In this document: in pieces, positions 3,095-28,899 of the stretch
Position numbering within the stretch: position 1 is the stretch's first letter
How the letters are laid out: every line of letters begins with the position of its first letter
NCBI GenBank assembly: GCA_037447655.1
Contig: JBBHKE010002614.1
Coordinates: 67,713 to 129,730, forward strand
Direction: 5' to 3'
Length of the DNA: 62,018 nucleotides
Origin: Zygnema cylindricum
Lineage: Eukaryota; Streptophyta; Zygnematophyceae; Zygnematales; Zygnemataceae
Translations under genes and position numbers: made by a program
Notes under the pieces: model-generated
Seen by the model: the letters and a program-made list of their open reading frames with translations, nothing else
Told to the model about the DNA's origin: nothing
Databases searched by the model: none

Positions 3095-3883
3095 CTAAAA
3101 CCTCGCCCAACAATGGTCGCATTCGGCGATACAATCTCCTCGACAATCGACGGAGTATCCCAAAACAAGAGGTTGTCGAATTAACACTTTTGTAAGAGAT
3201 GGTCCCGAAATTTTCCACTCTCGAGCCAATTGGGCGACATTTATTTGTAGTCTTTTTTCCACACTACAAGCCAAAACATGAGGAAAGGTTTTTACGACAT
3301 GTTTCAAATCTTTTCCCTCCAATCCCAAACTTTTTAAATACGAAAGAACCGTATTTAAAGTTTCGGGTTCTGGAACCATATCGACAATTTTGTCTTCCCA
3401 ATACCCTCTTAATACCCATCCGAAAGCTTTTGCGATAATCTTTTCGGCTTCGTCTTCCTCGAATCCTAAATCTTTTACAATATTTTTACTATTTTCCCAA
3501 TTTTCAAGATCGAGTCCGGAAAGTTCTTCGGAAGGTTTTCTCGGCGCTTTGACTCCGGCAAAAACCGAAGTTGTCTTTTTAACAGAACTTTTAGTTTTAT
3601 AAAACTTTTCTCCCGTTTCGATTCTCTTCGAAAAAAACATTTTCGGTGATGACATCGATGAGTTGGCGAACCACGGAGAAGTTAAAACGAGGGAATTCTT
3701 TTTTGTAACGGTCTTTTTCTCGGAAAAAGTCGAAATTTTCGATGTGGAGGAGAGCCCAGAGGTCAAGCCCAGGGGAAGGGAGGGGGAGGGAGAAGAGAGA
3801 GAGGGAGAGGGAGAAGGAAAAGGAGAGGAAGAGGTCAATTTGAAGCGTCCCAGAGGTACAAGAATTGGTACGGAGGTCGTCAT
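3095..3883 (-). CDS. mTERF-family organellar nucleic-acid-binding protein
   Basis: A 262-residue single-exon protein. Residues 1-100 are Ser/Thr/Pro/Lys-rich with no acidic cluster, as expected for a plastid or mitochondrial transit peptide, and include a low-complexity SPFPSPSPSL region. From about residue 108 the protein becomes helical and leucine-patterned, with mTERF-type repeats around TFPHVLACSVEKRL and VLIRQPLVLGYSVD (Pro near the repeat start, about 35-residue spacing). The C-terminus ends in a cysteine motif, DCRGDCIAECDHCWARF, which I recall from the ends of some plant mTERF proteins. The ATG at 3883 is preceded in frame by a TAG two codons upstream, so the start is well fixed. mTERF proteins bind organellar DNA or RNA and act in transcription termination, splicing or ribosome biogenesis; the target here is unknown. 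It is short for the family (few repeats), so it may be a small-class member. Confidence 0.78.
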   Translation of the reverse strand: MTTSVPILVPLGRFKLTSSSPFPSPSPSLSSPSPSLPLGLTSGLSSTSKISTFSEKKTVTKKNSLVLTSPWFANSSMSSPKMFFSKRIETGEKFYKTKSSVKKTTSVFAGVKAPRKPSEELSGLDLENWENSKNIVKDLGFEEDEAEKIIAKAFGWVLRGYWEDKIVDMVPEPETLNTVLSYLKSLGLEGKDLKHVVKTFPHVLACSVEKRLQINVAQLAREWKISGPSLTKVLIRQPLVLGYSVDCRGDCIAECDHCWARF

Positions 3884-4055
3884 CGTCTAAAACAAAGATT
3901 TAAACGAGAATAAGAAACAAATGAATTCAGGGAGAGGGAGGGAGGGAGAGAGGGAGAGGGGGAGAGGAAGAGGGAGAGGAGAGGGAGAGGAGAGAGGAGA
4001 GAGAGAGGGAGAGGTTAGTTTGAAGAGTCCCACAGGTACAGAAATTAGGCGATAT

Positions 4056-9594: not shown

Positions 9595-9851
9595 ATAAGG
9601 GATCTCTTAAAACAGTTCATGTCAATGAAGTTCTTCAAGATGATATTGGATTATACCTAGCTAAATAAGAAGCCCAGGAGGTGGGAAATAGAAAGGACTA
9701 GCTGAAAGTCCGACCAGATTGAGAGGTTAAAAAGTTAACTCTGGAGGGCAAGCTAATGAATGGAAAGGCTTGGATAACTCAATTTATTATGATGCTAACT
9801 ACAGTCTATAGTTTGAACAATCCTTCTGATGAAATTTTTAACAATTGACCT

Positions 9852-10151
9852 ATGTTAGGACAGTTAAGTAACGAAGACACCAAACACAGTTTGATCAGAT
9901 TAGAGCTTTTAGTGGAAGGGAAACCATTGAGAGTTATGGTAGATTCAGGTGCAACACATAAATTTATTTCACATAAGTTTGTAGAGGAAAATAAAATTCC
10001 TACTGTCATAAGAGAAAAACCTTTGCATGTTCAGGTGGCAAATGGTAATAAATCCACATTAGATTTACAAACTGACACAATAGAAGTTGATATCCAGGGT
10101 CATAAAATGAAAGTTGTGTGTGAAATAATGAATTTGGGTAGGGAGGAGTGA
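9852..10151 (+). pseudogene. Retropepsin-like aspartic protease of element 1
   Basis: A 99-residue open frame carries the catalytic motif as VDSGATHKFIS at about residues 35-45, followed by a beta-rich region, LHVQVANGNK. It processes the Gag-Pol polyprotein in active elements. The frame closes at 10149 just before the RT region, so a fusion with RT is broken. Confidence 0.8.
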
Positions 10152-10182
10152 CTTACCCCCAGGGAGGCCACCTTCCCGAGAT

Positions 10183-11000
10183 GTGGGACATGTTATTAAC
10201 CTTGAACCTGGATGTAATCCTCTTGTCACCAGAATTTATAAGCACATTTTCTTTGAGCAGGAGGAGTTAAAAAAACAGATCAAGGAGCTTGTGGAGAAAG
10301 GACATATTCAGCCCAGCAAATCAGCGTACGGAGCACTAGTTCTCTTCGTCAAAAAGAAAGACGGAACGTTGAGAATGTGTGTCGACTATCGTAGTCTGAA
10401 CAAGATTACGGTGAAGGATAAGTATTCGTTACCTTTAATTTTTGATTTGATAAATCGTTTAAAAGGTGCTAAATTATTTTCTTTCATTGATCTTCATATT
10501 GGCTTTAATCAGGTGCCAATTAGAACCGAAGATGTTGACAAAATTGCTATTAGATTTAGAGTCGGTCATTTTGAATAGATAGTGATGCCATTTGGTTTGA
10601 CGAATGCACCGCCTACTTATCAAAGATTAATGAACCAAACCTTTTTAGATTATATAGATGAGTTTCTTCTAGTGTTTATAGATGATATTCTAATTTACAA
10701 CGAATCTAAAGAACAACATGTAATTCATTTAAGGAGAGTGTTGGAAAGGTTAAGGGAAAGAAAACTATATGGAAAATTGTCAAAATCCAGTTTACTTAAA
10801 AGTGAACAATTATTTTGGGACATATAGTTAGTGGGGAAGGTGTTAAAAAGATCCATCCAAAATTACAGCAATCCAAAATTGGAAGCAACCCACTAATGTC
10901 ACAAAAGTTAGATCATTTTTGGGATTGGCCACTTATTACAGGAAATTTATCATGAACTTCAGTATGACCGCCGCACCTTTGACGGATTTACTTTGGGAGA
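10183..11000 (+). pseudogene. Reverse transcriptase of element 1, interrupted
   Basis: The first part (10183-10578) has the RT fingers and palm with [20 protein letters not shown] and [19 protein letters not shown] at 10579-10581 interrupts it, and the same frame resumes with MPFGLTNAPPTYQRLMN and the catalytic box VFIDDILIYN (FIDD in place of YxDD). It stops at 10825, and a frameshift leads into the connection domain ([13 protein letters not shown]-like, about 10915-10955). Gypsy-type RT, now a pseudogene. Confidence 0.88.
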
Positions 11001-11077
11001 AAGAGATGTTTGTGTGAGGAGCCGATCAAGAGAGAGCTTTCGAGGAACTAAAAGGGAAGTTAACCTCTGCGCCTACA

Positions 11078-11395
11078 TTGGTGTATCCTGATCCTGCTGG
11101 AGAATTTGAAGTTCTGATCACTACAGATGCATCTGATAAAGGTCTAGGTGCAGTCATAAGTCAAAAAGTCGGCAAACATTTTCATCCTATTGCTTTTGAG
11201 TCTAAGAAATTCAATGATGCTGAAAAGAACTATTCAGCACAGGAAAAAGAATTACTTGCAATTGTTCATGCATTGGTGAAATGGCGTTGTTATTTGCATA
11301 AGAAAGAATTTACAGTTCACTGTGATGATAAGGCACTTTCCTATCTACAAAGATTAAGTGATGCACAGATTATGACTGGCAAACAAGTTAGGTAG
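11078..11395 (+). pseudogene. RNase H domain of element 1
   Basis: TTDASDKGLGAVISQ, YSAQEKELLAIVHAL and FTVHCDDKALSYLQ carry the D-E-D residues of gypsy RNase H. The frame closes with a TAG at 11393-11395. Confidence 0.85.
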
Positions 11396-11790
11396 ATGCA
11401 GAAATTGGCATATTTCAAATTAAATGTCAAACATATTTTAAGAAAAACAAATGTAGTCGCAGATCCTTTATATAGATGTTTTGAAATTATTGTGATGGTT
11501 CGCGATGAATTGTTTTTAGATGCTATTAGAAATGGTTATGATAAAGATCTTTATTTTACTGTGATTTGCAAGAATATTTTGGGAGAGAATTCTAACCCAT
11601 TCAATAAGAGGCATGTCAAAAACTTTAGAATAGAAGATGGTTTACTGTATTTGCAAAACAGGGGATAGATTATGCATTCCTGAAATGGGAGACTTAAGAA
11701 AACAACTTTACAACAAGCCGATCAACATTTAGGACATCTACGTCGAGATAAAACTCTTAGTCGGTTGCAGAGTAGATTGTTTAAGCCCGG
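11396..11790 (+). pseudogene. RNase H tether and start of integrase, truncated
   Basis: The sequence after the stop continues as a pol remnant with HILRKTNVVADPLYR (the usual end-of-RNase H motif, normally ...ADALSR). After about 11670 it enters a frameshifted integrase zinc-binding start (DQHLGHLRRDKTLSRLQSR-like, about 11725-11780). The match ends at 11790. Confidence 0.75.
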
Positions 11791-12539
11791 TGTCATGCCG
11801 CATCTCGTCGGCCATTTAGTTGTTTATATTTAGGTGTTAGGAAGGGCAGCCGCTACACTAATTTGTATTTGGGTATTATTTGGGTTTCGCAGGACCGTAC
11901 GACGTGTACCGTACGACCTACATTTTTCGTGATTTCCGGTATGGCAATTTGGATCGTACCCGCGGTCCTACCGTACGACGTATCTTTTCCGCGATTTCCG
12001 CCGACGGCGGATTTGATTATTTCGCGTCGACCGTACGACTTACGTCGACCGGAATTCCCGCGGCCACAAATTGGACCGTACTTGCGGTCCTGCCGTACTT
12101 ATTTATTTTTTCCGGATTTCTCGCCGACGACACATTTTCGAATCGCGTCGAGACAAACAAACTTACCGTATTATATATATTTTGCGCGATTCTCGCCGAC
12201 GGTAGCTTTGATCATTTGACGTCGACCGTACGACTTATATTATCCGGAATTCGCGCGACGACAAAGTGGACCGTATCTGCGATCCTGCCGTACAAGCTTT
12301 CATTTCCTTGAATCCCGGCCGACATCAAATTTTAATCATTTCGCGCGGAGTAGCATCTCGACCGTCGACGCAAAGTATACGATTCTCGTAATATCTCATC
12401 TTGACCGTTGACGCGTGTGACAGACAAAGATACTGTCAGTTCTGACGAAGCTACGCTATTGGACTATTTTAAGTCGTGAACCATTTGGAGGTTCACGCAT
12501 TCACATGTAGATAGGAAGGGTTTTAATCCGTAGGTTATA
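11791..12539 (+). repeat. Left terminal repeat (5' LTR) of element 2
   Basis: It begins TGTCATGCCGCATCTCGTCG and ends ...CCGTAGGTTATA; the right copy is 18964-19622. It is far richer in CpG and CGTACG words than the rest of the window, and contains internal repeats built around GGACCGTAC(T)TGCGGTCCTGCCGTAC (about 12070-12100 and 12268-12295). The 3' ~120 bp (from GCGTGTGACA) is best conserved between copies. It may be missing its first ~187 bp (see the U3-like segment). Confidence 0.8.
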
Positions 12540-12583
12540 TTGACGAACCGAAGGTACCGGGTTCAAATCCCGGGTCCGTCAGT
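12540..12583 (+). other. tRNA 3'-half-like sequence directly after the 5' LTR
   Basis: GACGAACCGAAGGTA is followed by a perfect 5-bp T-stem and T-loop (CCGGG-TTCAAAT-CCCGG) and a seven-base acceptor-like end GTCCGTC plus A. This is tRNA sense sequence, not the complement expected for a primer site. I could not find a matching D arm or 5' acceptor strand upstream, so it is not called as a tRNA gene. Confidence 0.5.
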
Positions 12584-12902
12584 ACTATTTTTAGTAACCT
12601 ACTAAAAATAACTGCCTGTTGAACTAAGGCAGCCATGGATCAACCACCCTCTCTATCCTTCAGTGAATCCAACAAGTATGGGGGCTAGAGAGAGGAGGTG
12701 GAGGCAGGTTGTCTGTCCTTTTCTTTTCCTAACATATTTAAACCTAGAAAATACTATAGAAATCTATGAATTTCAACAAAGGAACGCTTGTGCATTCTAT
12801 CCACTATGATTTCCGACTCACCAAAAATATCCTCTCTCTCCTTTACCACCTATAGCTCAGCTGCAGCTGCCGCGTTAGAAGCACTTCAGCTGCACAAAAA
12901 TC

Positions 12903-13289
12903 TTGCTACTATTCGAGGAGCGAAATTCACTCGATCCTCACATATGTTTTTTGGATAACGGGAAGGGTGCATTGTTGATCAATGGTATAGCCCCTTCCCT
13001 GCCTCTCATGGATACGGGTGCAAAGCCGGTGATATTGGGCTCTAGCTTTGCACTTAAGCTTAGTCTAACTGTGGACAAGCTTCATTCCACTTCTACTCGC
13101 TTGTTAACATCAGCGCGTACAACCAAGCCAGTCCTAGGAATCACTAAGGAACCGCTCGTTTTTAAGTTCCAGAACGGGAGGGCCATAAACTTTGCTGAGA
13201 TCTCGGTTCACGCTCTGGTCACTAAATGTAGTGACTATGAATGCCTAGTGGGACATGACATATATATTTTGTGTAGAGGGTGGAGTTGA
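12903..13289 (+). pseudogene. Aspartic protease of element 2
   Basis: A 128-residue frame with the retropepsin motif LMDTGAKPVILG at about residues 35-46 and a second hydrophobic strand (ECLVGHDIYIL) where such proteases have their ILG-like motif. It is the first recognisable domain after the LTR; a normal element would have gag before it. A frameshift near 13280 separates it from a linker region (13255-13536). Confidence 0.75.
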
Positions 13290-13560
13290 CATGCATGATC
13301 AGACATTTTCTTATAGGCCCACTAACTTCCCAGAACGCATAATCTGCATTCCGCTAATTTCCGCGAGGAAGCCCATGCCTATTATGGCAAATTCGGCCAC
13401 ATCCATACCTGCATTTTCAAGGAATTCGGTGGGGGCCGAAATATTTCATTCATTGTCAGCAGAAAAAAATCTGCCCGATAGTTTTTACTTACTAGAAATT
13501 TTCAGTGACCTAGGTTTTCTTATAGATACGAGGTAATTTGACCGAATCTATAACCAAACC

Positions 13561-14286
13561 TTGTCAATTCCACTTTCTCCGGCCTCTCCTACAATCTCAC
13601 TCCCTACAGACTCTTCTGGGTTTCTTCCCATTAATTGGAATCCGGTCCAATTGAAACCTCATCCAAATGGATTGGTGATTTTGGACCTTTTCGCTGGAAT
13701 AGGCACTTCCCTCCTTGCATGTTTGCGGAATGGATTATTAATCCGAATTTATTATTCGGTTGAGATTGATCCGTTAACACGGAAAGCACAATTGCATCAT
13801 TGTAATCTGTTGCATTCCCAATACCTGCATTTGTTACCGAAATCTGCATACGAGCATATGCATACCGCCCTCCCACAAGACATCCGGATTGTGGGCAACC
13901 ATTAGTTAGAGGATATTGGTCCAATCGATCTAGTTTTTCGCGGATGGGAGTGCCAGGGAATGTCTCGGGCCGGGAAAGGTCTCGGATTAGCCGATCCTCG
14001 CACCAAATTATTTTTTGAATTGATCCGCATCCTGCATTTTCTACAAACTTTAGATCATCCTATGGGGTATATCTTGGAAAATGTCGCAGCCTATAATGAT
14101 CCAAGACCTACAGTCTTGGCTGATTATCAACGGATTGAACAATTAATTGGTCCGCCTCTTATTATTGACGCGGCTCGCCATGGTTCACTAACACACCAGG
14201 TTCGCTCCAAATTGACGAACCTGATCGATATTGGTAGACTCCGGGAGGCCAACTTGTTAGTTCGTCCTCCTCCTACAGACATTTAG
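13561..14286 (+). pseudogene. C5-cytosine DNA methyltransferase domain within pol
   Basis: The domain adds a methyl group from S-adenosylmethionine to cytosine C5. Motif I is LDLFAGIGTSLLACLRNG (about 13678-13731), the SAM-binding loop. An acidic strand follows (YYSVEIDP, motif II). Motif IV with the catalytic cysteine is WECQGMSRAGKGLGLADPR (about 13946-14002), with E in place of the usual P before C. Motif VI is YILENVAAY (about 14066-14092). Motif VIII resembles THQVRSKLTN (about 14191-14220). A TAG at 13903-13905 lies between motifs II and IV, so the copy is dead unless read through; otherwise the frame is open to 14284. No target-recognition domain or motif X is evident. Its place between protease and RT shows it is a retrotransposon gene, not a host gene. 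Retrotransposon-borne methyltransferases are reported from charophytes and dinoflagellates. Confidence 0.85.
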
Positions 14287-14308
14287 GCTGCTCCTTCCTT
14301 TTCATAAG

Positions 14309-16394
14309 GTGCAGCCTTGCATTCAAAAGGACTATCCCCCTAATATCAATGTCAATGTCCCGGGTCAACCTCTCAAGGTGCTTCCTACCTTAGTTTCTTA
14401 CCCACATTCACATGCATTCTCTAATGACGGTCCTTGCATGCTCCGAACCACTCATACCGGTGAGCTCGAAGAGCCTACCTCTACGGAACGAGAACACCTA
14501 ATGCATTTCATTCCCGGTACTACTGCCTCTCTTGGTCTTATTAAACGTCAAAGATGCACTTTATTAGGTCGTGTCATGGACCCTCAGTCTTTGTCTTTTG
14601 TTTTAGGTCTTGGGTTTGCAGCTGGTCGCCACTCTCAGGCACATCCGTCTCAACCAGCTGGGGGGGGGAATGCATCACTAAGAAAATCTTTCCGTACCAC
14701 TCTCCAAGGGACCACATTTCAATTTTTCCTCTTTCCTTCTCCAATTCCACCAGTTCCGGAAATCTCTATCTACAATTTCCTCAATCCTAGCCATATGTCT
14801 TGGTCTATTCCCGCATACACGGCTGTCCAGTCTATAAGTCCCATGCATATTCCACCCACTCCTCATTGGAGTGCTGCTTTTCCGACACGTAGTTGGAATC
14901 ATGCGGTTAATTGCCTTAAACAGACACCTGTAGCTTACGAGTTAGGTCAAACGCTTATCGCAGATGAGCAGTTGGCCTTTGCACAAGCCATGGAAGCTAT
15001 GACAACCGAAAATCCCGATGCTCCTAAATGGAAATTCGGCACAAATCTAACAAAGGCCGAACAAGAGTTACTGAATGACGTAGTTTTACGAAATATCGAT
15101 GCCTTTGCCTTTTCTATGAACGATTTGGGTCGTCACACCGCTTATAAGATGTCGATAGATCTCGAAGATGATCGCCCTATATTTAAACCGAAACATCGTT
15201 TGTCAGAAACGGAATGGGAAATGGTAGACAAGCGATGTGCTGAACTAGAGGAAGCTGGCCTAATCTATCGGTCAGACTCCACATTTGCAGCTCCCACTGT
15301 CATGCCTCGGAAAAAGGATTCCGAGGGTAATTTTACTGAACGTCGAATGTGTGGTGACTATCGTGAACTAAACGCTAGAACAGTTCAAGATCGTCATCCC
15401 ATGCCTCTTGCCGAAGAAATATTTGATCATGTAGGCGGAGCAAATTATTTTAGTATCCTTGACCTTCGTCAAGGATTCAATCAAATCGAGATAGAGGAAA
15501 AAGACCGGCACAAAATTGCCTTTTGGGGTAGCGACGGCCAATGGGAATGGACCGTAATGCCATTCAGATTGAAAAATGCTCCGGCAGTATTTCAAAAAAA
15601 TCATGGACTCCGTTCTTGGAGGCTGTTAGTTTGCTGGATGTTACATCGATGACCTCATCATTGCCTCGGCTACTATCGAAGAGCACGCTGCTCACATCGA
15701 ATGGGTATTGACTGAATTGAAAAAGGTCGGATTAAAATGTCATTCAGCGAAATGCACCTTTGGAGCTGAGGGAGTGCCTTACCTCGGCCATTTTATCTCG
15801 GCTGAGGGGATCACTCCTCTCCAAGCAAAGGTAGAGGCGATCAGTAAATTGCCTGCTCCCACGGACCTCACAAGTCAACGAGCCTTTCTCGGACTTGCTA
15901 ATTATTATCGCAGGTTTGTATCTAATTTTACCACCATCGCATCTCCGATAAACGACCTTCTCAAGGAGGAAGTGGCGTTTATATGGGGTCCCGATCAAAT
16001 TTCCGCATTTCAAAAATTAAAAACCGCTTTATCAAGTGCTCCAATTCTCCGTCCTCCCAATCACAAACTCCCTTTTTGTCTCCAAACAGATTTTGGGAAA
16101 CCCGGAATTGCTTCCATTTTGACACAAAGAGAGTTGAGCGGAGAGGAATACGTAGTTGCTTACGCGAGTAGAAGCATTAACCGGGCTAAATCAAATTATA
16201 GTAGCTACGAAGGAGAGTGTCTAGCCGCGGTTTGGGGAGTCGTTCACTTCCGCCATTATTTGTACGGAAAACCTTTCACACTCCTAACTGACCATCAGCC
16301 CTTACATTGGCTGATGACAAACAATAAGCTTTCCGATAAGCTAGCCCGATGGGCTTTAATCTTACAAGAATATGACGTTGAAAGAATTCACTGA
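14309..16394 (+). pseudogene. RT and RNase H of element 2, frameshifted
   Basis: An open frame from 14309 to 15652 runs through a linker and then RT: ERRMCGDYRELNARTVQDRHP, YFSILDLRQGFNQIEI and WTVMPFRLKNAPAVFQK. A frameshift in the A7 run near 15595 and a stop follow; the catalytic box CYIDDLIIAS (about 15637-15666) continues in another frame. 15708-16394 gives the RT thumb/connection (FLGLANYYRRFVSNF) and RNase H with D (LQTDFGKPGIASIL), E (YSSYEGECLAAVW) and D (LLTDHQPLHWL), ending at a TGA where a tether would continue. Ty3/gypsy class. Confidence 0.9.
14656..14671 (+). other. Internal copy of the polypurine tract (cPPT-like)
   Basis: AGCTGGGGGGGGGAAT is identical over 16 bases to the 3' tract at 18757-18772. 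It sits between the methyltransferase and RT domains, inside an open frame (translated PAGGGNAS). Central PPTs are known second plus-strand start sites in some retroelements. Confidence 0.6.
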
Positions 16395-16647
16395 CCCGGT
16401 CTGCTTATTCTAAACGCAGATGGAATTTCTCGAAATCCTTTGCCCCGAACAACAGATAACGGAGTTCGACAGGATTTCAATAACGACGATGTTCCCGTCA
16501 TGTCAATGGGTTCTTATCTTACTTACTGCCTGGCGTCTATTCCGAACCCCCGTCGCGCCACAGATCCTTCCCGTGATGGGCCTCTCATTTTTTTCCTATC
16601 CTCCCAGACCTTCAGGTCCGGCACAACCTCCGATGAAGAAGACAGAG
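16395..16647 (+). pseudogene. RNase H-integrase tether of element 2
   Basis: After the TGA at 16392, another frame gives LNADGISRNPLPRT, the typical NADGLSR-type end of gypsy RNase H, then a Ser/Pro/Asp-rich tether (about 16440-16650) that the inserted MITE interrupts. Confidence 0.65.
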
Positions 16648-17356
16648 CATAGTTGTCCTATTCGTACGGATTCCAACTTTTTTCCGAAAACTACGTAGTA
16701 TTCGTTACTTTCATACCGTTCGTTAGTTTTCGCTGTACGATGTTCGAAGATGTACGGAAGCCGTCCCCTTAACCCTAAAAAATCCTCAAAAAAATCCTAA
16801 AAACGTACGAAAAACATACAGAAATGTACGTCATTGTACGACATGTGTACCCTAAAAAACCTAAGAGTACGGATAATGTAAGGCTGCTGTACTGTAATTT
16901 ACCGGAATGTACGAAATGCACGGGAAGAACCCTAAACACCCTAAAATCCCCCCATCACTAACCCTAAAAGTACTGAAATATACGGATGCCGTACGTAGCT
17001 GTACGAAAAATGCAAGTCCGTATAACTGAAATATACGGAAAAGTACAAAAATGTACCTTAAAAATCTCAAAATAATAACCGTCAAAAGTACGAAAAAATA
17101 CGGACACTTTACGTAAATGTACGAATAATAGTTGGCTGTTTAACATAAATATTTGAGAACGCACGAGAATTTACCCTAAAACTCCTCATACCCCCTAAAA
17201 GTACTGAAATGTACAAAAATAGTACGCAAATGTACGAAAATGTACGGTTACATAGTCAAGTACGCATTTTATAACATTTTTTTCATCGTTAAATGCGTAT
17301 CGTGCGTAGTATTCGCTCCTTCGTTTCGTGCGTATTATGCGCACGGGACAACTATG
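16648..17356. mobile_element. hAT-like MITE inside element 2, perfect 8-bp TSD
   Basis: TIRs CATAGTTGTCC and GGACAACTATG, with AGACAGAG duplicated at 16640-16647 and 17357-17364. The interior is a dense array of GTACGAAA/TACGGA words plus ACCCTAAAA, with no coding capacity. Its insertion in gypsy pol shows the MITE moved after the retrotransposon arrived. Confidence 0.92.
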
Positions 17357-18517
17357 AGACAGAGTGAAAAAGAGGGCCAAAAGTGACCTTTGGCTCGGGG
17401 GATCTTTAGTTCGGTTGTTGGCAGACGGAAGCCATAGGCACGTTCCACGGCCTACCGAGCGTCTTTCTCTCATTTAGCAGATCCACACTGAGCTTGGTAA
17501 CAACGGTACCAAGCAAACGTTAAGTCTAGTTCAGGCACGGTATTGGTGGTCATGAATGCAAGCTAATGTCGCTGCTATTCTGCACAAGTGTGCCACCTGT
17601 GACCGTCTCTGAACTTATTTTTCTAACCGGCAGACTACGCTCCAACCTCTACCTATAAGGGGTTTGTTCTATCGATGGTCGGTCGATTTGGCCGAACCTT
17701 TTCCTATCTCATGTAAAAGGAAACAATACATTATGATTATGATCGAAAATTTCAGTAAGTGGGTAGAAATCGTAGCCCTGCCTCACAAGAGAGCTAAACT
17801 AACCACCACAGCTTTTAAGGAACATGTCCTTACGAGATATGGTGCCCCAGCCGAGGTCCTTACGGATCAAGGTACAGAATTTCAGAGAGAATTTAAAGAG
17901 ATGCTTGATGAGGCCCTCATCAATCATCGTCGTACTAGTCGGGATCACCCCCAGGCTGATGGCCTAGCTAACGGGCAGTCCATTCATTTAAGCGTGCCTT
18001 GCGTAAGCATTGCTTAGAAAAACACATTTTGGTTTGGGACGAGTCCCTCGGTTACATTACCATGGGATATCGCATGTTAGTTCACGCTAGTCTGGCTAAT
18101 TTCAGCCCGTATTATGTTTTATTTGGGCGACAACCTTTGGTCGGTCGCAATATTCACAAGGCTGCAAGCTTTCCACTTCCGCTGATGTATGACACTATTT
18201 TTTTGGAAGAACTCACTCGTCGTGCTTTGTTTTTTGCCCGTGAAATGTCCATGGCTTTTGATAACCTGCATATTGCCCAGCATCGGGACACACTTCGGTT
18301 TGCCACAACTCGAAGCGGCACTTACAGGCCGCAACAGAAGCCCTATCGGATGGGAGACTGTGTTTATCTTCGCAGGCAATCTTTCGACACTTTGGACACT
18401 GATATTTTTGCACACATCTTACAGATCATTGAGGTGGATCCGAACGGAATGTTGGGATTACAAGGAGCGAACACACGGACTTTTCAAGAGCACTCCAAGA
18501 ATTGTGCTCCATGTTAC
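17357..18517 (+). pseudogene. Integrase of element 2, several frameshifts
   Basis: The zinc-binding domain (about 17486-17612) shows HTELGNNGTKQTL and ILHKCATCDR, the second half of an HHCC motif. The catalytic core (17664-18017) has the first Asp in WSVDLAEPFP and the second in VLTDQGTEFQ; the region that should hold the Glu follows DHPQADGLA but is frameshifted there. The C-terminal part (about 17999-18517) has SPYYVLFGRQP and RMGDCVYLRRQS, a GPY/F-like module and the sequence EHSKNCAPCYLPD leading towards the PHD finger. No chromodomain is visible. Confidence 0.82.
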
Positions 18518-18568
18518 TTACCAGATTTTGTCGCAGGATATGGATCCTATGCGGATGCGTATTACGGA

Positions 18569-18717
18569 GGCGACAACATGTACCTTTTGTCATCGATCGG
18601 ACGGGGAAACTACCATGTTACTTTGTGATCATTGCAACCAGGGGTTTCACATAGAGTGTTAGAGCCACCATTGTTGGCAGTTCCGGATGGTCATTTGTTT
18701 TGCCACGGATGTCGCGA
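18569..18717 (+). pseudogene. PHD finger at the C-terminus of gypsy element 2 pol
   Basis: CTFCHRSDGETTMLLCDHCN followed by QGFHIEC gives C-x2-C, C-x2-C and H-x2-C in one frame (about 18575-18660). After a stop/frameshift at 18661, GHLFCHGCREL supplies the last C-x2-C in another frame. PHD fingers read histone tails, usually H3 with K4 methylated or unmodified, so this could have guided integration in place of a chromodomain. The spacing is that of a C4HC3 PHD finger, not a RING. Confidence 0.78.
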
Positions 18718-18756
18718 GCTACCAGTCGTGTTGGCCAGCTCCTCTGCCGGCTAAAA

Positions 18757-18772
18757 AGCTGGGGGGGGGAAT
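18757..18772 (+). other. 3' polypurine tract of element 2
   Basis: AGCTGGGGGGGGGAAT, followed four bases later by TGACCTAACC. This is the expected plus-strand primer position just before a 3' LTR. It lies 191 bp before the aligned right terminal repeat, which suggests that the true LTR starts at 18777. Confidence 0.65.
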
Positions 18773-18776
18773 AAAC

Positions 18777-18963
18777 TGACCTAACCATAACCAGCTAAGT
18801 GGTTGACCTTTCTTTTTATTTCACCTTGCCTGTTGTTATATTTATTCATTTTTCTCTTTCGTGTCTTATTTCATTCACAACATATTTTCATCATTTCGGT
18901 TTAAGTGGAGCACAGCTGATGATATTGCATGTATCTTCACGTTATTGACACATGCACAACAGC
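18777..18963 (+). repeat. U3-like segment, probable true start of the 3' LTR
   Basis: It starts TGACCTAACCATAACCAGC, is absent from the 5' copy, but recurs at about 20349-20532. Its place right after the polypurine tract argues that it is the beginning of the LTR and that the 5' LTR has lost it by deletion. Confidence 0.5.
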
Positions 18964-19622
18964 TGTCATGCCGCATCTCGTCGGTCATTTTAATTGTTTA
19001 TATTTAGGTGTTAGGACGGGCAGCCGCCACACTAATTTTTATTTGGGTGTATTTGGGTTTTGCAGGGCCGTACATACTTACGTTGGCCGTAATTTCCGCC
19101 GACGGCGAGTTCGACAATACGACATACATCTCCCATGATTTTTGACGACGGTGGATTTTGTCATTTCACGTCGTCCGTACAATATATATTTTGCGCAATT
19201 TCCGCCGACGGTGGATTCGATTTTTCACGTAAATCGTATGACTAACATTTGCCGGAATTTGCGCGACAACAAAGTGGACCGTACCTACGGTCCTACCGTA
19301 CCTATTCTCATTTCCCGGAATATCCGCCGAAGACTCATTTTCGAATTTGCGCTCGTACAAATAATCGTACCGTACCAACTTTCATTCCCGTGAATTTCGG
19401 GCGACAACAGAATTTAATCATTTCGCGTGGAATAGCATCTCGGCCGTCAACGCAGAGTATGCAATTTTTCATAACATCACATCACGACCGTTGACGCGTG
19501 TGACACACAAAGCGACTGCCAGTTCTGACGAAGCGACGTGATTGGACTATTTTAAGTCGTGAACCATTTGGAGGTTCACGCATTCACATGTAGATAGGAA
19601 GGGTTTTAATCCGTAGGTTATA
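18964..19622 (+). repeat. Right terminal repeat (3' LTR) of element 2
   Basis: It aligns with 11791-12539 from TGTCATGCCGC to TAGGTTATA, but is about 90 bp shorter and clearly diverged. Many differences are loss of CG words, for example CCGTACGACTTA on the left against CCGTACAATATA on the right. Confidence 0.8.
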
Positions 19623-20348
19623 GATTTTGTAACGTATGGCATAGGATTTCGGCCTCCTATTGGCTGAATCCAAACTAGACGCAAATACTTACATAGCACG
19701 CTGTACTCTGATTGGCCTGTTTTCACTAGGCGTAGTTTTTGTTACTTAGTTCATTTCGGATCATTTCCTGCACACAATTTTCAAGTGCAGGAATTATTTA
19801 TTTTCAGTGTTGAGGATTTTCTGTAGCCATCTTTTTATTTGTAAAATTGTCCGGACAGCTTAGAGGCGATTTTCTGCCTTTGCGTGAAGTGTCTTGTTTT
19901 CTATTACATTGTTAATATTTTGTAAAGCCTTACAAATTAATCTATACAGCTTCGGCGAAGACCTACACGGTTTCCCTTCACTTTTCTCGTCTTTTTGAGT
20001 GGATTTTGACCGCGTTCTCACGACACAAACTTCTTTTCCCGACTGTGGTTGAGCTTTTATTAGTGTGGAATTTGCATGTTAGGATTATTGATTTGTTGCT
20101 TTTATTTCTTGTGATTATGTATTTATTTCTATTTGCTTATGCGCATCTTTTGAGTTTGGCTATCTCAAACATCATAAGTGTCGGGCATATTGTCATTTTC
20201 AGTTTGTTGTTTGTCTTTCTCGGTTGTTTATGCTTTGATTTGTTTTATTTAAGTATAAATTCAGATTATCCTTGATAAGATAACTCCTGCAAGGAATATA
20301 AATAGACCGTGGGGCCTAGTGGTCATCCATCGACTTAGTAGAATACAC
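19623..20348. other. Unassigned sequence after element 2
   Basis: No gene. A TATA-like TATAAATAG lies at about 20298 just before the repeated U3-like segment. It does not continue the integrase of element 1, so element 2 is not a simple insertion into element 1. Confidence 0.4.
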
Positions 20349-20532
20349 CGACCTAACCATAACCAGCTAAGTCGTTGACCTTTCTTTTTCTTCCACCTTG
20401 CCTGTTGTTGTATTTATCCATTTTTACTTTAATGTTTTATTTCATTTACGTTATCTCGCAATCATTTGAGTTTGAGTTTAGCACAGCTCATGATATTGCA
20501 TGCATCTTCATGTTATTTGATACATGCACGAC
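20349..20532 (+). repeat. Second copy of the element 2 U3-like segment
   Basis: GACCTAACCATAACCAGCTAAGT through TGATATTGCATGCATCTTCA and ...ACATGCACGACAG matches 18778-18963. Similarity stops where TGTCATGCCGC begins in the other copy. It is probably a fragment of a related LTR. Confidence 0.7.
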
Positions 20533-22107
20533 AGATTTGACACGTTTTACTGAAGAATTTATAAGTATCTTTTTAAACTCTATTTTTATCTAGTTCACCA
20601 TCATTTCAAACCTCTTTGTTTTTTTGTTGGAAAGGTAGCGGAGAAAACAAAGTTGAACACATTTAAGTGTTGCACATACATTAGCAACATCCTCAATCTA
20701 ATAGGTATTTGAGACCCACGCGTGGATCTTGTGTTTTTATATTAAGCGAAAAGAAGATTCGTTGACGCAGTTTTCAAAGGCCTCACAACCGCACGTGTTT
20801 CCTCCTAGGCAAAATTGCATGTAATCATTCTCTCTTTATGCAAAGGCCTTTGCTTTATGAGTATACACACATAGACACCTGATTTGCTTTGGAGATTTGT
20901 GAGGTCATGGAGTTCTCATCTTACGTGATTGAAGTTAGAGGACCTGACAACCTTTCCCCGCCCGTTCATGTTTGCTTTCTTCCACCAATGTATCACTGTC
21001 ACCCGTGTCCAACCTTTGACCCTTTAACTAATAGAGCAACGTGGTGAATAATTGTCGCGGACTTCAAAAATTATAGCGCACCACCTTGTGGAAATGAACG
21101 ATATTCGTAATTTTTACCTTCACTGTGGCATCGTCTTGGGCTTAGAGCCGAGGGCCCACTTCTTAGTTTGGTATTAGTGATATTTGTAGCTTTCATGTGC
21201 AAATTTATAGTTTTTAGTTACGTTTGTTATTTTTTCAATAAGTAAGGATTTTCATTTATAATATTTAATGGTCGTCAAAAGTTTTACATTTCATCATGAT
21301 GGTTTAGAGCGTTGTCTATTAGGCGGTCTCAGTAAACTTCAAAATTTTGTTTACCGAAGCCATCGTTCCATTGTGTCGAATCAGTAACGGACATTTTATT
21401 TGCATGACACACTTTGGTTGGTTCACATCACAGATGAATATGATTTTGGTAATCTTTAAATAATCTCTAACAACAAATAATGACCACATATTTCTATGAG
21501 CGAAGGTAAAAAGTGACTCGTACAAACGTGTTGAATACAATATGTACGGGCGGACGAAACTTAAGATTTGTAAAAGCGTACCAAAATGTCAGAATGGTTA
21601 GGGGATGGCAACAGAAGCGTGAAACAATATCGTTCGTCAAAGATTTTATCGCGGCTTCCGATGGCCTCGCATCCTCCCTGGTGGAAGGCGCATGTCATAA
21701 GCAACGTGTACCAACTTCGTCGCGCGGTCGTTGTGGATATTTGTTCACTTTTCCATGAGGCACGATGCTATACATTCAGGCGCTTATAATTGACCAGGTC
21801 ACTTGTTGCGAACTGAAAGTGTCAAACGATGGCGTATCCGATTATGCATCTGACGGTCCATGTTTACGCCCATAATCGTGGAAAATCAAATCCCTCATTC
21901 AGTAGGCTTATTTTTCTAACATTTTGTTTTTTTGATACGGCACTGTACGAAACAGTACGACTTTCAGTAAACAACGACATTTTTTCCCTAATGGAACCTT
22001 ACCCTTAGCCATCGCTATTTTAGATATAAAACCATCTTCAAAGTAAAAAGCCACAAACGCTCGACGTCATCGTAATTGTCCTACATTTCATTTTAATCTG
22101 TGTGGAC
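20533..22107. other. Non-coding region
   Basis: No recognisable gene; the open frames are short and unlike any family I know. Confidence 0.45.
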
Positions 22108-23520: not shown

Positions 23521-25710
23521 CACTCCGAAATTTTGACTTTGATACACGAAATACAGTGATTGAATCTAATTTATCTTTGACATTAAATGCGGTACTTGTA
23601 AATTAGCGTCAATGGTATGACCGTAGTGAATGCATGAATAGTGTGGTGTACGGAAGTAGTTTGATGGTACAACATTGTACTTCTTTACCGGAATCCGTAC
23701 GGAATTTGTGGTTATCTTATGTAGGTCGCATACATAGTTGCGTTACAAAAATTGTTGAGTCGAGCTTGCAAAATAAACGTTCACATACATTCATACTTTC
23801 GTTTTTGTGTGTTATAGTCTGAACGGATAATATGTGCACATGGTAAAAATTGTCCATGTTACGTAAGCGTAATGTTGCGTACTTACACATGTTCATCGTC
23901 GCGTTAGAGTTAAGTCTAATACGTTGCCGTATTAACTCTATTTGAGATATTGCAGAAATAATAGTGTATATATTTACACTATTACAGGGTCAAAAACAAA
24001 CATAACAGTAATACCAGACCTTTAAACCAAAAAGACGCTTATTAGAGTTAAGTTTGACTCTAAAATGGGTAATGTTTCACAAAACGACAACAAATTACTG
24101 TCACATTGTAAATAAAATAGAGTAAAGTTACAAAATTTAGGATTGAAGAAAAGCGGCGCCTAGAAAACGAGAATTGATATCAAACCAACGGCAAATGCGG
24201 AAAGAACACAAAAAATAGATTTTCTGTTCTGAGTAATCCCAACCACATCTTTGTCCTCTGGTGGGTGAATTCAGATTCTCGCAGAGCCATTTTCACATGA
24301 CGCCGCCATTTTTTCGGCAAGATACGGATCGTCTCCCAGCCGCCTCGCTGAGTCTCGCGACATCTATCGACTCCATACCTCATTTTAGGGTTTAAAGCAG
24401 TATTAGGGTACACAACAATATGCCGAAAGAACAAGGGGAATCGCGCTATTACCGTCGCTATAAATTATAGGGTTTATCAAGGGTTTTTGGGTAAGTGCGC
24501 ATTTCACCATGTTTTTTCATATCTTTCGCTCCCTCTACCTTATTATTCTTCCACCTTTTTCAATCTCTATCTCTTTTTATCCCTTTTCCTCTTCCTTTTC
24601 GCATTGCTTATCTCTCACATCCCATTTCATTTGCTTACCTTTCTCCCTCACTCTCTTCTCCCCTCTCTCTCTCCCACCCATTTTGTCCCATACCCTTTCT
24701 CTAATCATCTCTCTCATTCCCTTCTTCTCACTGTTCCGTCTCTCTCTGTCCGTCATTTTTCTCATTTTATTTGTTGAGCCCATATACCCCCTACTAATCC
24801 GTTATCTTCATCTCTCTTTCGTATGTGAAACTGTCATCTTTGATCAACTTCTATCTGATGGCTGTTGTATTGGGGAGCACCCTACGGCAACATGTGATCG
24901 TAGGGAAGAAGAAAGCATCATTTTGAAGGTGTTGGACAGAATGAAAGTTTCGGGAGTAAACCTTGAGGAGCTTTGCGTATATCTGTATTTGTTGTCACCG
25001 ATCGTTTCTAATTAGTTAGTGTGTGTAATATTACCAAGTTGTTAAATTATTTTTAATGGGATTTTCGAGCTAGAGGTAGAAACGTCAAGAATTATGTTAG
25101 TACATAGAGCTTTGTTTAATATTGTAGATTAATACGCCTATATTTTTGTTTTAGATTAACGTTGTGAAAACGATATCATCGTGAAATATACAAATTTTGT
25201 ATTTTTTTTCCATTGTTGTTAATCAATGATTTTATTAGTGTCAACTTAGTAAATATATTTTTATTAATTGTGTGTTTTTTTAATTGCTTTCATGTTGTAC
25301 CGATGACTTTTTCGCATTGGAATATATTAAATCTCGGTGTCTTTTTGTTTGTGTATCATCTGTATATGTTGAAAATATGCATCAATCTCTCTTATCACCG
25401 CGTATAGTACTTTAAATGTGCTTTTCCTACATGGAAGATTTTGCTTTCATCATTCAATCCAGTTTTTATGGTTTCACCCTTGTCAAAATTGGTATTTTTG
25501 CCAAGGTAAAAACCTTCTTACTTGTTCAGAGCTTTAATAATATCCACCTAATATGTAAACTGACGGTTCACAGGTCAGCAACGAACCAAACTCGAAGCTG
25601 TAAAGCCATGCGATCAGACAAACAACGTTACAATGAATGCCATGATTTGCATTCAGCGACGAGGCAAATTCTGCTTTGTCGGAGATAATGATGAATCACT
25701 TTCGCCGCTG
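23521..25710. other. Mostly non-coding; one possible coding fragment at 24830-25014
   Basis: A frame ending at 25015 includes a non-repetitive stretch (SDGCCIGEHPTATCDRRE, then ILKVLDRMKVSGVNLEELC) that looks more protein-like than its CT-rich upstream part. I do not recognise the family and no splice sites are clear. The remainder shows nothing definite. Confidence 0.3.
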
Positions 25711-25711
25711 G

Positions 25712-26075
25712 ATTTCCATCCAGCGACGAGACAGCCTCTGCATCGTCGAAGATGATGCATAAACAGTTTCAAAGATGTATTTCCATCGAGCGACGAGGCA
25801 CTCTCTGCATCGTCGAATGTGATGCAAAAACTGTTTCAAAGTTGAATTTCCATCCAGCGACGAGACACTTTCGGCATCGTCGAAGATGATGCAAAAATAG
25901 TTTCAAAGCTGTATTTCCATCCAGCGACGAGACAGCCTCTGTTTTGTAGAAGATGATGCAGAAGCAATTTCGCTGCTGGGTTTCCATCCAGCGACAACAC
26001 AGTCTCTGCATCGTCGAAGATCATGCTGAAGCAGTTTGAAAGCTGGATTTCCATCCAGCGACGAGGAATTATCGC
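25712..26075. repeat. 67-bp tandem satellite, five full units plus a partial
   Basis: Units begin at 25712, 25779, 25846, 25913, 25980 and 26047, exactly 67 bp apart. Each starts near ATTTCCATCCAGCGACGAG and contains a palindrome (CTGGATTTCCATCCAG in the best units) and GCATCGTCGAAGATGATGC, itself a near-palindrome. Confidence 0.9.
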
Positions 26076-28399: not shown

Positions 28400-28628
28400 T
28401 GTTAGATTTCCTAGAAATCTGGGATTCCGCATGTCCCACACTTGGGTAAATTGAGCTGACCAGGGTTCGAACCTGGGACCTTTCACTTCAGCTGCGAACG
28501 CACTACCACTGTGCCACCAGCTCGATGTTGAGACTGGCGGGTCCGTACCCATTTATTGCGGGCGGCTCGAGTATGGATATTTCCATATTCTACCCCGTAT
28601 TGGACCGGCTTCACGTGCCAATCCAACA
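28400..28628 (-). repeat. 3' LTR of the miniature element
   Basis: 229 bp, about 97% identical to the other LTR. Here the T run after the cloverleaf is TTTA, so the terminator-like T4 is lost. Confidence 0.9.
28453..28523 (-). tRNA. 71-nt tRNA-like cloverleaf in the 3' LTR
   Basis: The same structure as the copy in the other LTR. The acceptor 3' strand is TCAGCTC, so the last pair is a G-T wobble; the A box is TGGCACAGTGG and the B box is unchanged. Differences between the copies fall at positions that keep the fold. Confidence 0.7.
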
Positions 28629-28670: not shown

Positions 28671-28899
28671 TGTTAGATTTCCTAGAAATCCGGGATTCGG
28701 CATGTCCCACACTTGGGAAAATTGAGCCGGCCAGGGTTCGAACCTGGGACCTTTCACTTCAGCTGCGAACGCACTACCATTGTGCCACCAGCTCGATGTT
28801 GAGACTGGCGGGTCCGTACCCATTTATTACGGGCGGCTCGAGTATGGATATTTCCATATTCTACCCCGTATTGGACCGGCTTCACGTGCCAATCCAACA
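28671..28899 (-). repeat. 5' LTR of the miniature element
   Basis: 229 bp. In element orientation the tRNA-like cloverleaf occupies about positions 106-176 of the LTR, followed after two bases by TTTT, a potential Pol III terminator. Confidence 0.9.
28724..28794 (-). tRNA. 71-nt tRNA-like cloverleaf in the 5' LTR
   Basis: It folds as a normal tRNA: acceptor GAGCTGG/CCGGCTC (7 bp, one G-T), D stem GCAC/GTGC, anticodon stem TTCGC/GTGAA, five-base variable loop, and T stem CCAGG/CCTGG with loop TTCGAAC. The A box (TGGCACAATGG) and B box (GGTTCGAACCC) match Pol III consensus. The anticodon loop AGCTGAA lacks the invariant T33, so it is probably a tRNA-derived promoter rather than a working tRNA; formally the anticodon would be CTG. 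Confidence 0.7.

Follow-up and report, generated by a model that had tools for sequence, protein, structure and literature searches.

The stretch of DNA analysed here, referred to as the window, comprises 62,018 nt (positions 67713–129730) of contig JBBHKE010002614.1 of the zygnematophycean alga Zygnema cylindricum and contains an old and broken copy of a Gypsy-type retroelement at approximately 11791–20533. The open frames of the window were scanned with Pfam, and tblastn was run with five relatives as queries. Every part of the copy was aligned by the relatives, with E values from 3e-21 (protease) to 0.0; gag was not found in it with these five queries. The order of the parts, all on the plus strand, was protease, DNMT3-type methyltransferase, reverse transcriptase (RT), RNase H, integrase and C4HC3 PHD finger, as in a sequence-only reading of this DNA, which had placed a methyltransferase between protease and RT and a PHD finger after the integrase. 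The copy is a dead member of a numerous integrase-bearing Gypsy-type family with split direct repeats at its ends. Its frames that match the relatives are interrupted by stops at 13903, 15627, 16392, 17475, 17553 and 17610, and the frame changes within the methyltransferase, RT, integrase and PHD finger. Loci from the same genome are labelled L0xx and the database proteins compared are labelled P0xxx. Against locus L035, identity was about 70–72% at the DNA level and 68–88% at the protein level by part, except for the last PHD piece (50% over 26 residues).

The aspartic protease remnant (12882–13286) matched PF13650 below the cut-off (E = 0.0013) and was 35% identical to the protease of P0165 (E = 3e-21). 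The N-terminal two thirds of the methyltransferase (13603–14262; PF00145, 7.6e-09) were 47% identical to P0165 and 79% to L035, and the C-terminal part follows in a different frame (14297–14641; 76% to L035). The first part of RT occupies 15017–15598 (PF00078, 5.6e-09; 70% to P0079), and the end of RT with RNase H, including two of the stops, 15591–16394 (PF17917, 2.2e-34; 57% to P0079), within a tblastn block extending from 15591 to 16646. The gap between RNase H and integrase is filled by a repeat-rich stretch of about 0.7 kb (16647–17357) with GTACG-type internal repeats, which none of the five relatives aligned. The zinc-binding part and catalytic core of the integrase, with three stops, lie at 17358–17969 (PF00665, 8.6e-14; 54% to P0079, 82% to L035), and its C-terminal domain was located by tblastn in the next frame (17972–18560; 79% to L035). 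The PHD finger (18579–18712) changes frame once near 18660. It was aligned in a tblastn block at 18540–18659, continuing to 18712, and was 65% identical to P0079 and 78% to L035, each over 40 residues.

The methyltransferase is carried by two open frames, 13537–13905 and 13906–14286, which are in the same reading frame and are split by the TAG at 13903. The PF00145 match lay in frame 13906–14286, above the cut-off, and frame 13537–13905 alone gave no PF00145 match in the Pfam scan. The C5-methyltransferase motifs claimed earlier were present: DLFAGIGTS as motif I; the catalytic Cys (codon 13951–13953, in GWECQG); ENV; and later motifs. A profile of six methyltransferase sequences retrieved DNMT3A/B/C chains first (4.1e-25), followed by 4onj 'DNA methyltransferase' (7e-12), HhaI (2.4e-10) and DRM2 (3e-10). 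Of five structure models of the P0165 domain, the best had a pLDDT of 81.6 (the other four, 63.9–73.1), and the structure closest to it was DNMT3B (E = 1.2e-16, TM 0.65/0.76). By its motifs and predicted AdoMet fold, the enzyme is a DNMT3-type C5-methyltransferase, with predicted activity. Its modelled catalytic fold and its motif order are shared with animal DNMT3A/B, whereas its catalytic site is mostly ECQ or PCQ, also SCQ or DCR, where DNMT3 has PCN. The catalytic Cys itself was kept in all 13 aligned methyltransferases, preceded by E, P, S or D. For nine pairs of open copies within one subfamily, methyltransferase dN/dS was 0.11–0.39; six of the pairs are distinct, since L028 and L029 do not differ in this region. 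Pairs between subfamilies (saturated), L035–L036 (0.32, almost no change) and L040 (stop) were excluded.

In the PHD finger of the window copy, C-x2-C-x11-C-x2-C-x4-H-x2-C lies in one frame and the final C-x2-C in another; all eight zinc ligands of the proposed C4HC3 finger are encoded, with the one internal frame change. The first half scored 24.1 bits against PF00628 (cut-off 24) and the L035 finger 39.5 bits. The eight ligands were invariant in all of 23 relatives, which were picked from PHD-bearing proteins, and the triplet MLL preceded the third Cys in 44 of 65 fingers matching the pattern. The solved structures best matching the L035 finger were PHF12, Lid, BAZ2B, WSTF, PHF21A, ORC1B, KDM5B, KMT2D and KDM5A, with CHD4, BAZ2A, ATXR5, DPF3, KAT6, AIRE and UHRF1 further down; most of these we take to read unmodified H3K4 or H3 tails. 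For the P0079 finger, KDM5 ranked first among solved structures. PHD fingers that read H3K4me3 have an aromatic cage Trp two positions before the ligand His. This position held no aromatic residue in any of the 65 pattern-matching fingers (G in 59, A in 4, P in 2). Given its nearest solved relatives and this lack of a cage residue, the finger of the element is expected, from its sequence, to read unmodified H3K4.

Scanning of the genome (352.8 Mb) gave at least 123 scored places for PF00145, and together with the open relatives this rules out a methyltransferase private to the window copy, a possibility raised by the sequence-only reading. Regions of 10 kb around the top 20 of these places were sampled. 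Intact relatives, which the same reading had suggested seeking, were found here: L035 encodes gag, protease, methyltransferase, RT, RNase H, integrase and PHD in a single frame of 2395 codons, with PF00145 at 46.5 bits and PF00628 also above its cut-off, and L026 encodes methyltransferase, RT, integrase and PHD in a single frame of 1520 codons. In L036 and L039 the methyltransferase, RT, integrase and PHD are spread over two frames each. Twelve of the 20 loci kept the integrase C-terminus. The PHD model matched 11 of them, and the twelfth, L031, has a broken PHD remnant as judged by eye. The remaining eight end before the integrase C-terminus; L027 yielded no domain.

With 150 scored PHD places and 123 scored methyltransferase places, 20 same-strand pairs were obtained in which the PHD lay 2.0–6.8 kb downstream of the methyltransferase, at a spacing of 3996–4237 bp in 16 of them, and no other arrangement of the two was found within 10 kb. 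Both domains belong to the element. A 260-residue query made of an integrase end and PHD matched 147 places in 149 rows. With the exception of four rows, the match extended to residue 253 or beyond, the PHD ending near residue 248. Scoring was limited to the best of 2008 candidates, which favours complete copies in this count. A methyltransferase among those listed lay 1.0–7.5 kb upstream at 20 of the 147 places, and two more lay within 10 kb, one on the opposite strand and one 7.9 kb upstream. Many listed copies of the family carry stops. A chance PHD pattern is ruled out by the conservation of the ligands and by these recurrent copies. Of the 150 scored PHD-finger places in the genome, 81 coincide with integrase ends of this element family.

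The termini of the element differ from those first proposed: the supposed long terminal repeats (LTRs), taken to delimit an LTR element at 11791–19622, correspond to the A parts of direct repeats that are split, and the 3' end lies near 20533. The arrangement A1-ORF-B1-A2-B2, in place of ordinary LTRs, was seen in the window copy, L035, L034 and L022. In the window copy A1, the 5' terminal repeat, is shortened (11791–12541) and its pieces are 71–87% identical to 18964–19622. B1 (about 18769–18963), in which the 3' terminal repeat recurs internally, is 84% identical to about 20341–20534. A2 spans 18964–20340; its portion 18964–19622 matches A1, and the remainder, with TATAAATA at 20297–20304, was assigned by analogy with L035. 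B2, the 3' terminal repeat (about 20341–20534), was defined by self-comparison; it ends in CACGACA and forms the 3' end of the element. B1/B2 repeats occurred in seven of the 20 sampled loci, at 91.6–99.6% identity, and were not found within the 10 kb examined of the open copies L026 and L039. A1 was found upstream of L034 (91.6%) and L022 (83%), and was not found within 3 kb upstream of L036.

The young copy L035 has A1 and A2 of 931 bp each, 100% identical, and B1/B2 99.6% identical (repeat positions L035:7981–9398 with L041:1758–2688). Its ends read TGTCATG..CACGACA (TG..CA) and are flanked on both sides by TTGG, a 4-bp target duplication of the kind produced by DDE integrases. When the flanks were joined with a single TTGG, the open pol frame of another Gypsy element ran across the site. 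A version of that other element, 87.8–90.9% identical to the L035 target, is uninterrupted at the L035 insertion point, near window position 11437. The window copy was inserted about 350 bp beyond the equivalent point, and no target duplication was found at its ends. The other Gypsy element lies at 9849–11790 of the window and is interrupted at 11790 by the methyltransferase/PHD element. In the Pfam matches of the L035 frame taken from its first Met (E up to 0.1), rve was listed and a tyrosine recombinase was absent. The dinucleotide GC separates B1 from A2 in the window copy, L035, L034 and L022. B1-GC-A2 looks like joined unprocessed ends, and we infer that this inner junction may template the termini. 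Directly after A1 in the window copy lies a sense tRNA 3' half (12541–12582). It was considered as an odd primer site and dropped, being absent there in L035, with similar sequence in L023, L030 and others; window 12542–12755, including the tRNA 3' half, is probably a dispersed tRNA-derived repeat.

Relatives were found in other organisms. The 74 proteins retrieved with the methyltransferase-RT frame as query included some from Closterium and from Calypogeia fissa, a liverwort, as well as general Gypsy RTs. An integrase query retrieved 91 proteins, of which 69 had a precomputed PF00628 match, including proteins of Klebsormidium nitens and Sphagnum. Two queries run against viral contigs found no relatives. 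By domain models, 18 of 177 proteins, some of them fragments, contained both methyltransferase and integrase, and 16 of these had a PHD; the other two, P0016 and P0139, stop short of the PHD position. Many PHD proteins among the 177 had no methyltransferase in their own frame, although it could lie in another one. P0109 continues past the integrase without a PHD pattern, perhaps being frame-shifted. The sequence-only reading had asked whether PHD and methyltransferase always occur together. They do so in nearly all the loci that keep the integrase C-terminus and in most proteins with both enzymes, but not always, as shown by the PHD proteins just mentioned and by annotated Closterium proteins without PHD.

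The methyltransferase occupies one of two positions in pol, either before RT, as in the window, or between RNase H and integrase. In a 26-row tree the two placements formed two sides of one branch (support 99/99), the second placement being inferred for several rows because RT lies outside those proteins. The window copy grouped with P0079, P0080, P0088 and P0089 (95/89) in a tree of 89 integrase rows. In P0115, P0121, P0148, P0156, P0169, P0150 and others the PHD is followed by a second methyltransferase-like domain, of class I (DPWxGTG, SPWF); M.TaqI ranked first for it in VIA-align and third in Foldseek, and it is perhaps of adenine type.

Several known systems resemble the family in part. 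Chromoviruses are Gypsy elements with a chromodomain behind the integrase. At the position of this domain, which is of a chromatin-reader type, the window family has a PHD instead; no chromodomain was found in the window frames (Pfam, E up to 1) or in the L035 frame (E up to 0.1). CR1-like non-LTR elements with a PHD also exist; they share a PHD in a retroelement protein but belong to another class, with no integrase or methyltransferase. The order RT-RNase H-DDE integrase is shared with Ty3/Gypsy elements, as are, in L035, the TG..CA ends and the short target duplication, but not the presence of the same LTR at both ends, and split repeats are shared with DIRS elements, but not the tyrosine recombinase. 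A close published system is KnitGypsy-Dnmt3 of K. nitens, which, according to the main text of its description, has Gypsy-type domains, a Dnmt3-type methyltransferase in the pol frame and DIRS-type repeats (de Mendoza et al. 2018, PMC5890265), all of them features of the window family. That main text mentions PHD nowhere, which bears out, within the literature searched, the suggestion that of the two domains the PHD has been described less. By this published description, and not base by base, the PHD sets the window family apart. K. nitens does have a partial integrase-PHD protein, P0077. The main text of the same paper also describes SymbioDIRS-Dnmt3 and LINE elements of Symbiodinium with a methyltransferase in the retroelement polyprotein; SymbioDIRS-Dnmt3 has a tyrosine recombinase, whereas the window family encodes a DDE integrase and its young copy L035 shows TG..CA ends flanked by a target duplication of 4 bp. 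Chromoviruses are named in the part of PMC6338049 covered here, in which PHD was not found, and the covered part of PMC5745447 contained neither PHD domain nor PHD finger. No report of a PHD in a Gypsy pol appeared in the titles or abstract openings of the literature searched. Retroelements with a captured DNMT3 are known, and the linked PHD-bearing integrase is new within that literature.

We propose, with a confidence that we regard as evenly balanced, that the PHD finger docks integration on chromatin with unmethylated H3K4 and that the methyltransferase travels in the same particle and adds methylation to the newly inserted copy or to the DNA around it. The sequence-only reading had called the element a self-contained chromatin toolkit that combined a DNA-methylation writer with a histone reader. 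Animal DNMT3 combines an H3K4me0-reading ADD domain with a catalytic domain. In the open relatives, one gag-pol polyprotein would carry a DNMT3-type methyltransferase before RT and an H3K4me0-reader-like PHD after the integrase, which would copy the logic of animal DNMT3 in two separated parts. Where DNMT3 has ADD as the partner, the element has a canonical PHD, with RT and integrase lying between it and the enzyme. A PHD on the integrase C-terminus would dock the integration complex at nucleosomes with unmethylated H3K4, and the docking sites would be inactive chromatin and other transposons. Both the window copy and L035 lie inside the same other Gypsy element; this fits targeting of silent repeats, with only two cases. 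An 804-bp 5' stretch of L025, whose boundary is unsure, gave no match to that other element. For the two domains we infer histone reading and a choice of targets, including that they steer or mark insertion, as well as methylation activity and its purpose.

Several observations weigh against the proposal. CpG decay was sought as a footprint of self-methylation in the window copy by comparison with L035 and was not seen: from methyltransferase to RNase H, CG in L035 corresponded to TG or CA in the window copy 31 times, and the reverse occurred 33 times, which argues against lasting dense CG methylation of the window copy. CpG observed/expected was 0.46–0.50 in the surrounding Gypsy element, 0.62–0.63 in L026 and L039 (second subfamily, open) and 0.85 in L035, values that come from elements of differing composition. 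When 801-bp slices were taken at the expected upstream place of six integrase-PHD places, the methyltransferase was present in three, one of them (C46) already paired, and missing at the expected position in the other three. Of these, the L050 slice contained the RNase H end, so that the spacing is shifted there, and the L046 and L047 slices had no match to methyltransferase, RT/RNase H or protease. The methyltransferase is also less constrained than RT (dN/dS 0.07–0.17) and integrase (0.02, one pair) of the same subfamily. The second subfamily of the same genome (L022, L026, L028, L030, L034 and L039) has C-x3-C as the first ligand pair of its PHD, and PHD dN/dS within it was 0.16–1.12 (15 pairs, 46–47 codons). 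Among the near relatives of the finger, KMT2D, DPF3 and KAT6 are presumably not plain H3K4me0 readers. Five Closterium proteins, P0128, P0153, P0154, P0159 and P0140, end after the integrase without a PHD as annotated in database gene models. The first four extend 46–91 residues beyond the end of the integrase model, four of the five have identical last residues, and P0140 shares 68% identity over 263 residues with P0012, which bears a methyltransferase.

It is possible, though rather unlikely in our estimate, that the methyltransferase serves counter-defence or protection of complementary DNA (cDNA), marking the cDNA of the element or disturbing host silencing, and is unconnected to the PHD. 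The frequent PHD proteins without a same-frame methyltransferase, the Closterium proteins with methyltransferase and no PHD, and the two places of the methyltransferase in pol, in two groups, fit this explanation; the narrow spacing of most methyltransferase-PHD pairs and the PHD in 16 of the 18 proteins with both enzymes speak for a connection. We consider it unlikely that the PHD serves the integrase C-terminus as a structural zinc module, for folding, dimerisation or DNA binding with no histone reading, beside an independent methyltransferase. Such a module would be in keeping with a PHD that usually begins about 50 residues past the end of the integrase model, with the altered ligand spacing tolerated in the second subfamily and with annotated Closterium integrases that manage without it. 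However, the PHD sequence is nearest to solved histone-tail readers, as we take these to be, and its recurrence goes beyond the zinc ligands, as in the MLL triplet. That both domains are functionless passengers, as the stops in many copies might suggest, is very improbable in view of the methyltransferase dN/dS, the catalytic Cys and the invariant PHD ligands of the chosen relatives.

Extended further, the docking and methylation proposal leads to a tentative and doubtful picture of a broad green-lineage retroelement family with a divided DNMT3 system. In this family an integrase PHD that reads H3K4me0 would pick silent chromatin, which a DNMT3-type enzyme packaged alongside would methylate; the methyltransferase would have two placements in pol, some members would have a second methyltransferase-like domain, and split direct repeats would be combined with a DDE integrase, the B1-GC-A2 junction templating the ends. 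Methyltransferase-bearing retroelements have been published, and the linked, conserved reader-like finger at the chromodomain position offers a concrete hypothesis for their purpose, namely to read silent chromatin, integrate and methylate. The combination of DDE integrase and split repeats likewise opens to testing the route by which such elements replicate.

Elsewhere in the window, a minus-strand open frame at 3095–3886 resembles an mTERF-type protein by eye, and a direct repeat at 25645–25995 consists of four copies at 67-bp spacing. ARAGORN and Rfam reported only two tRNA genes, far from the element; both are minus-strand tRNA-Gln (CTG) genes, at 28452–28523 and 28723–28794.

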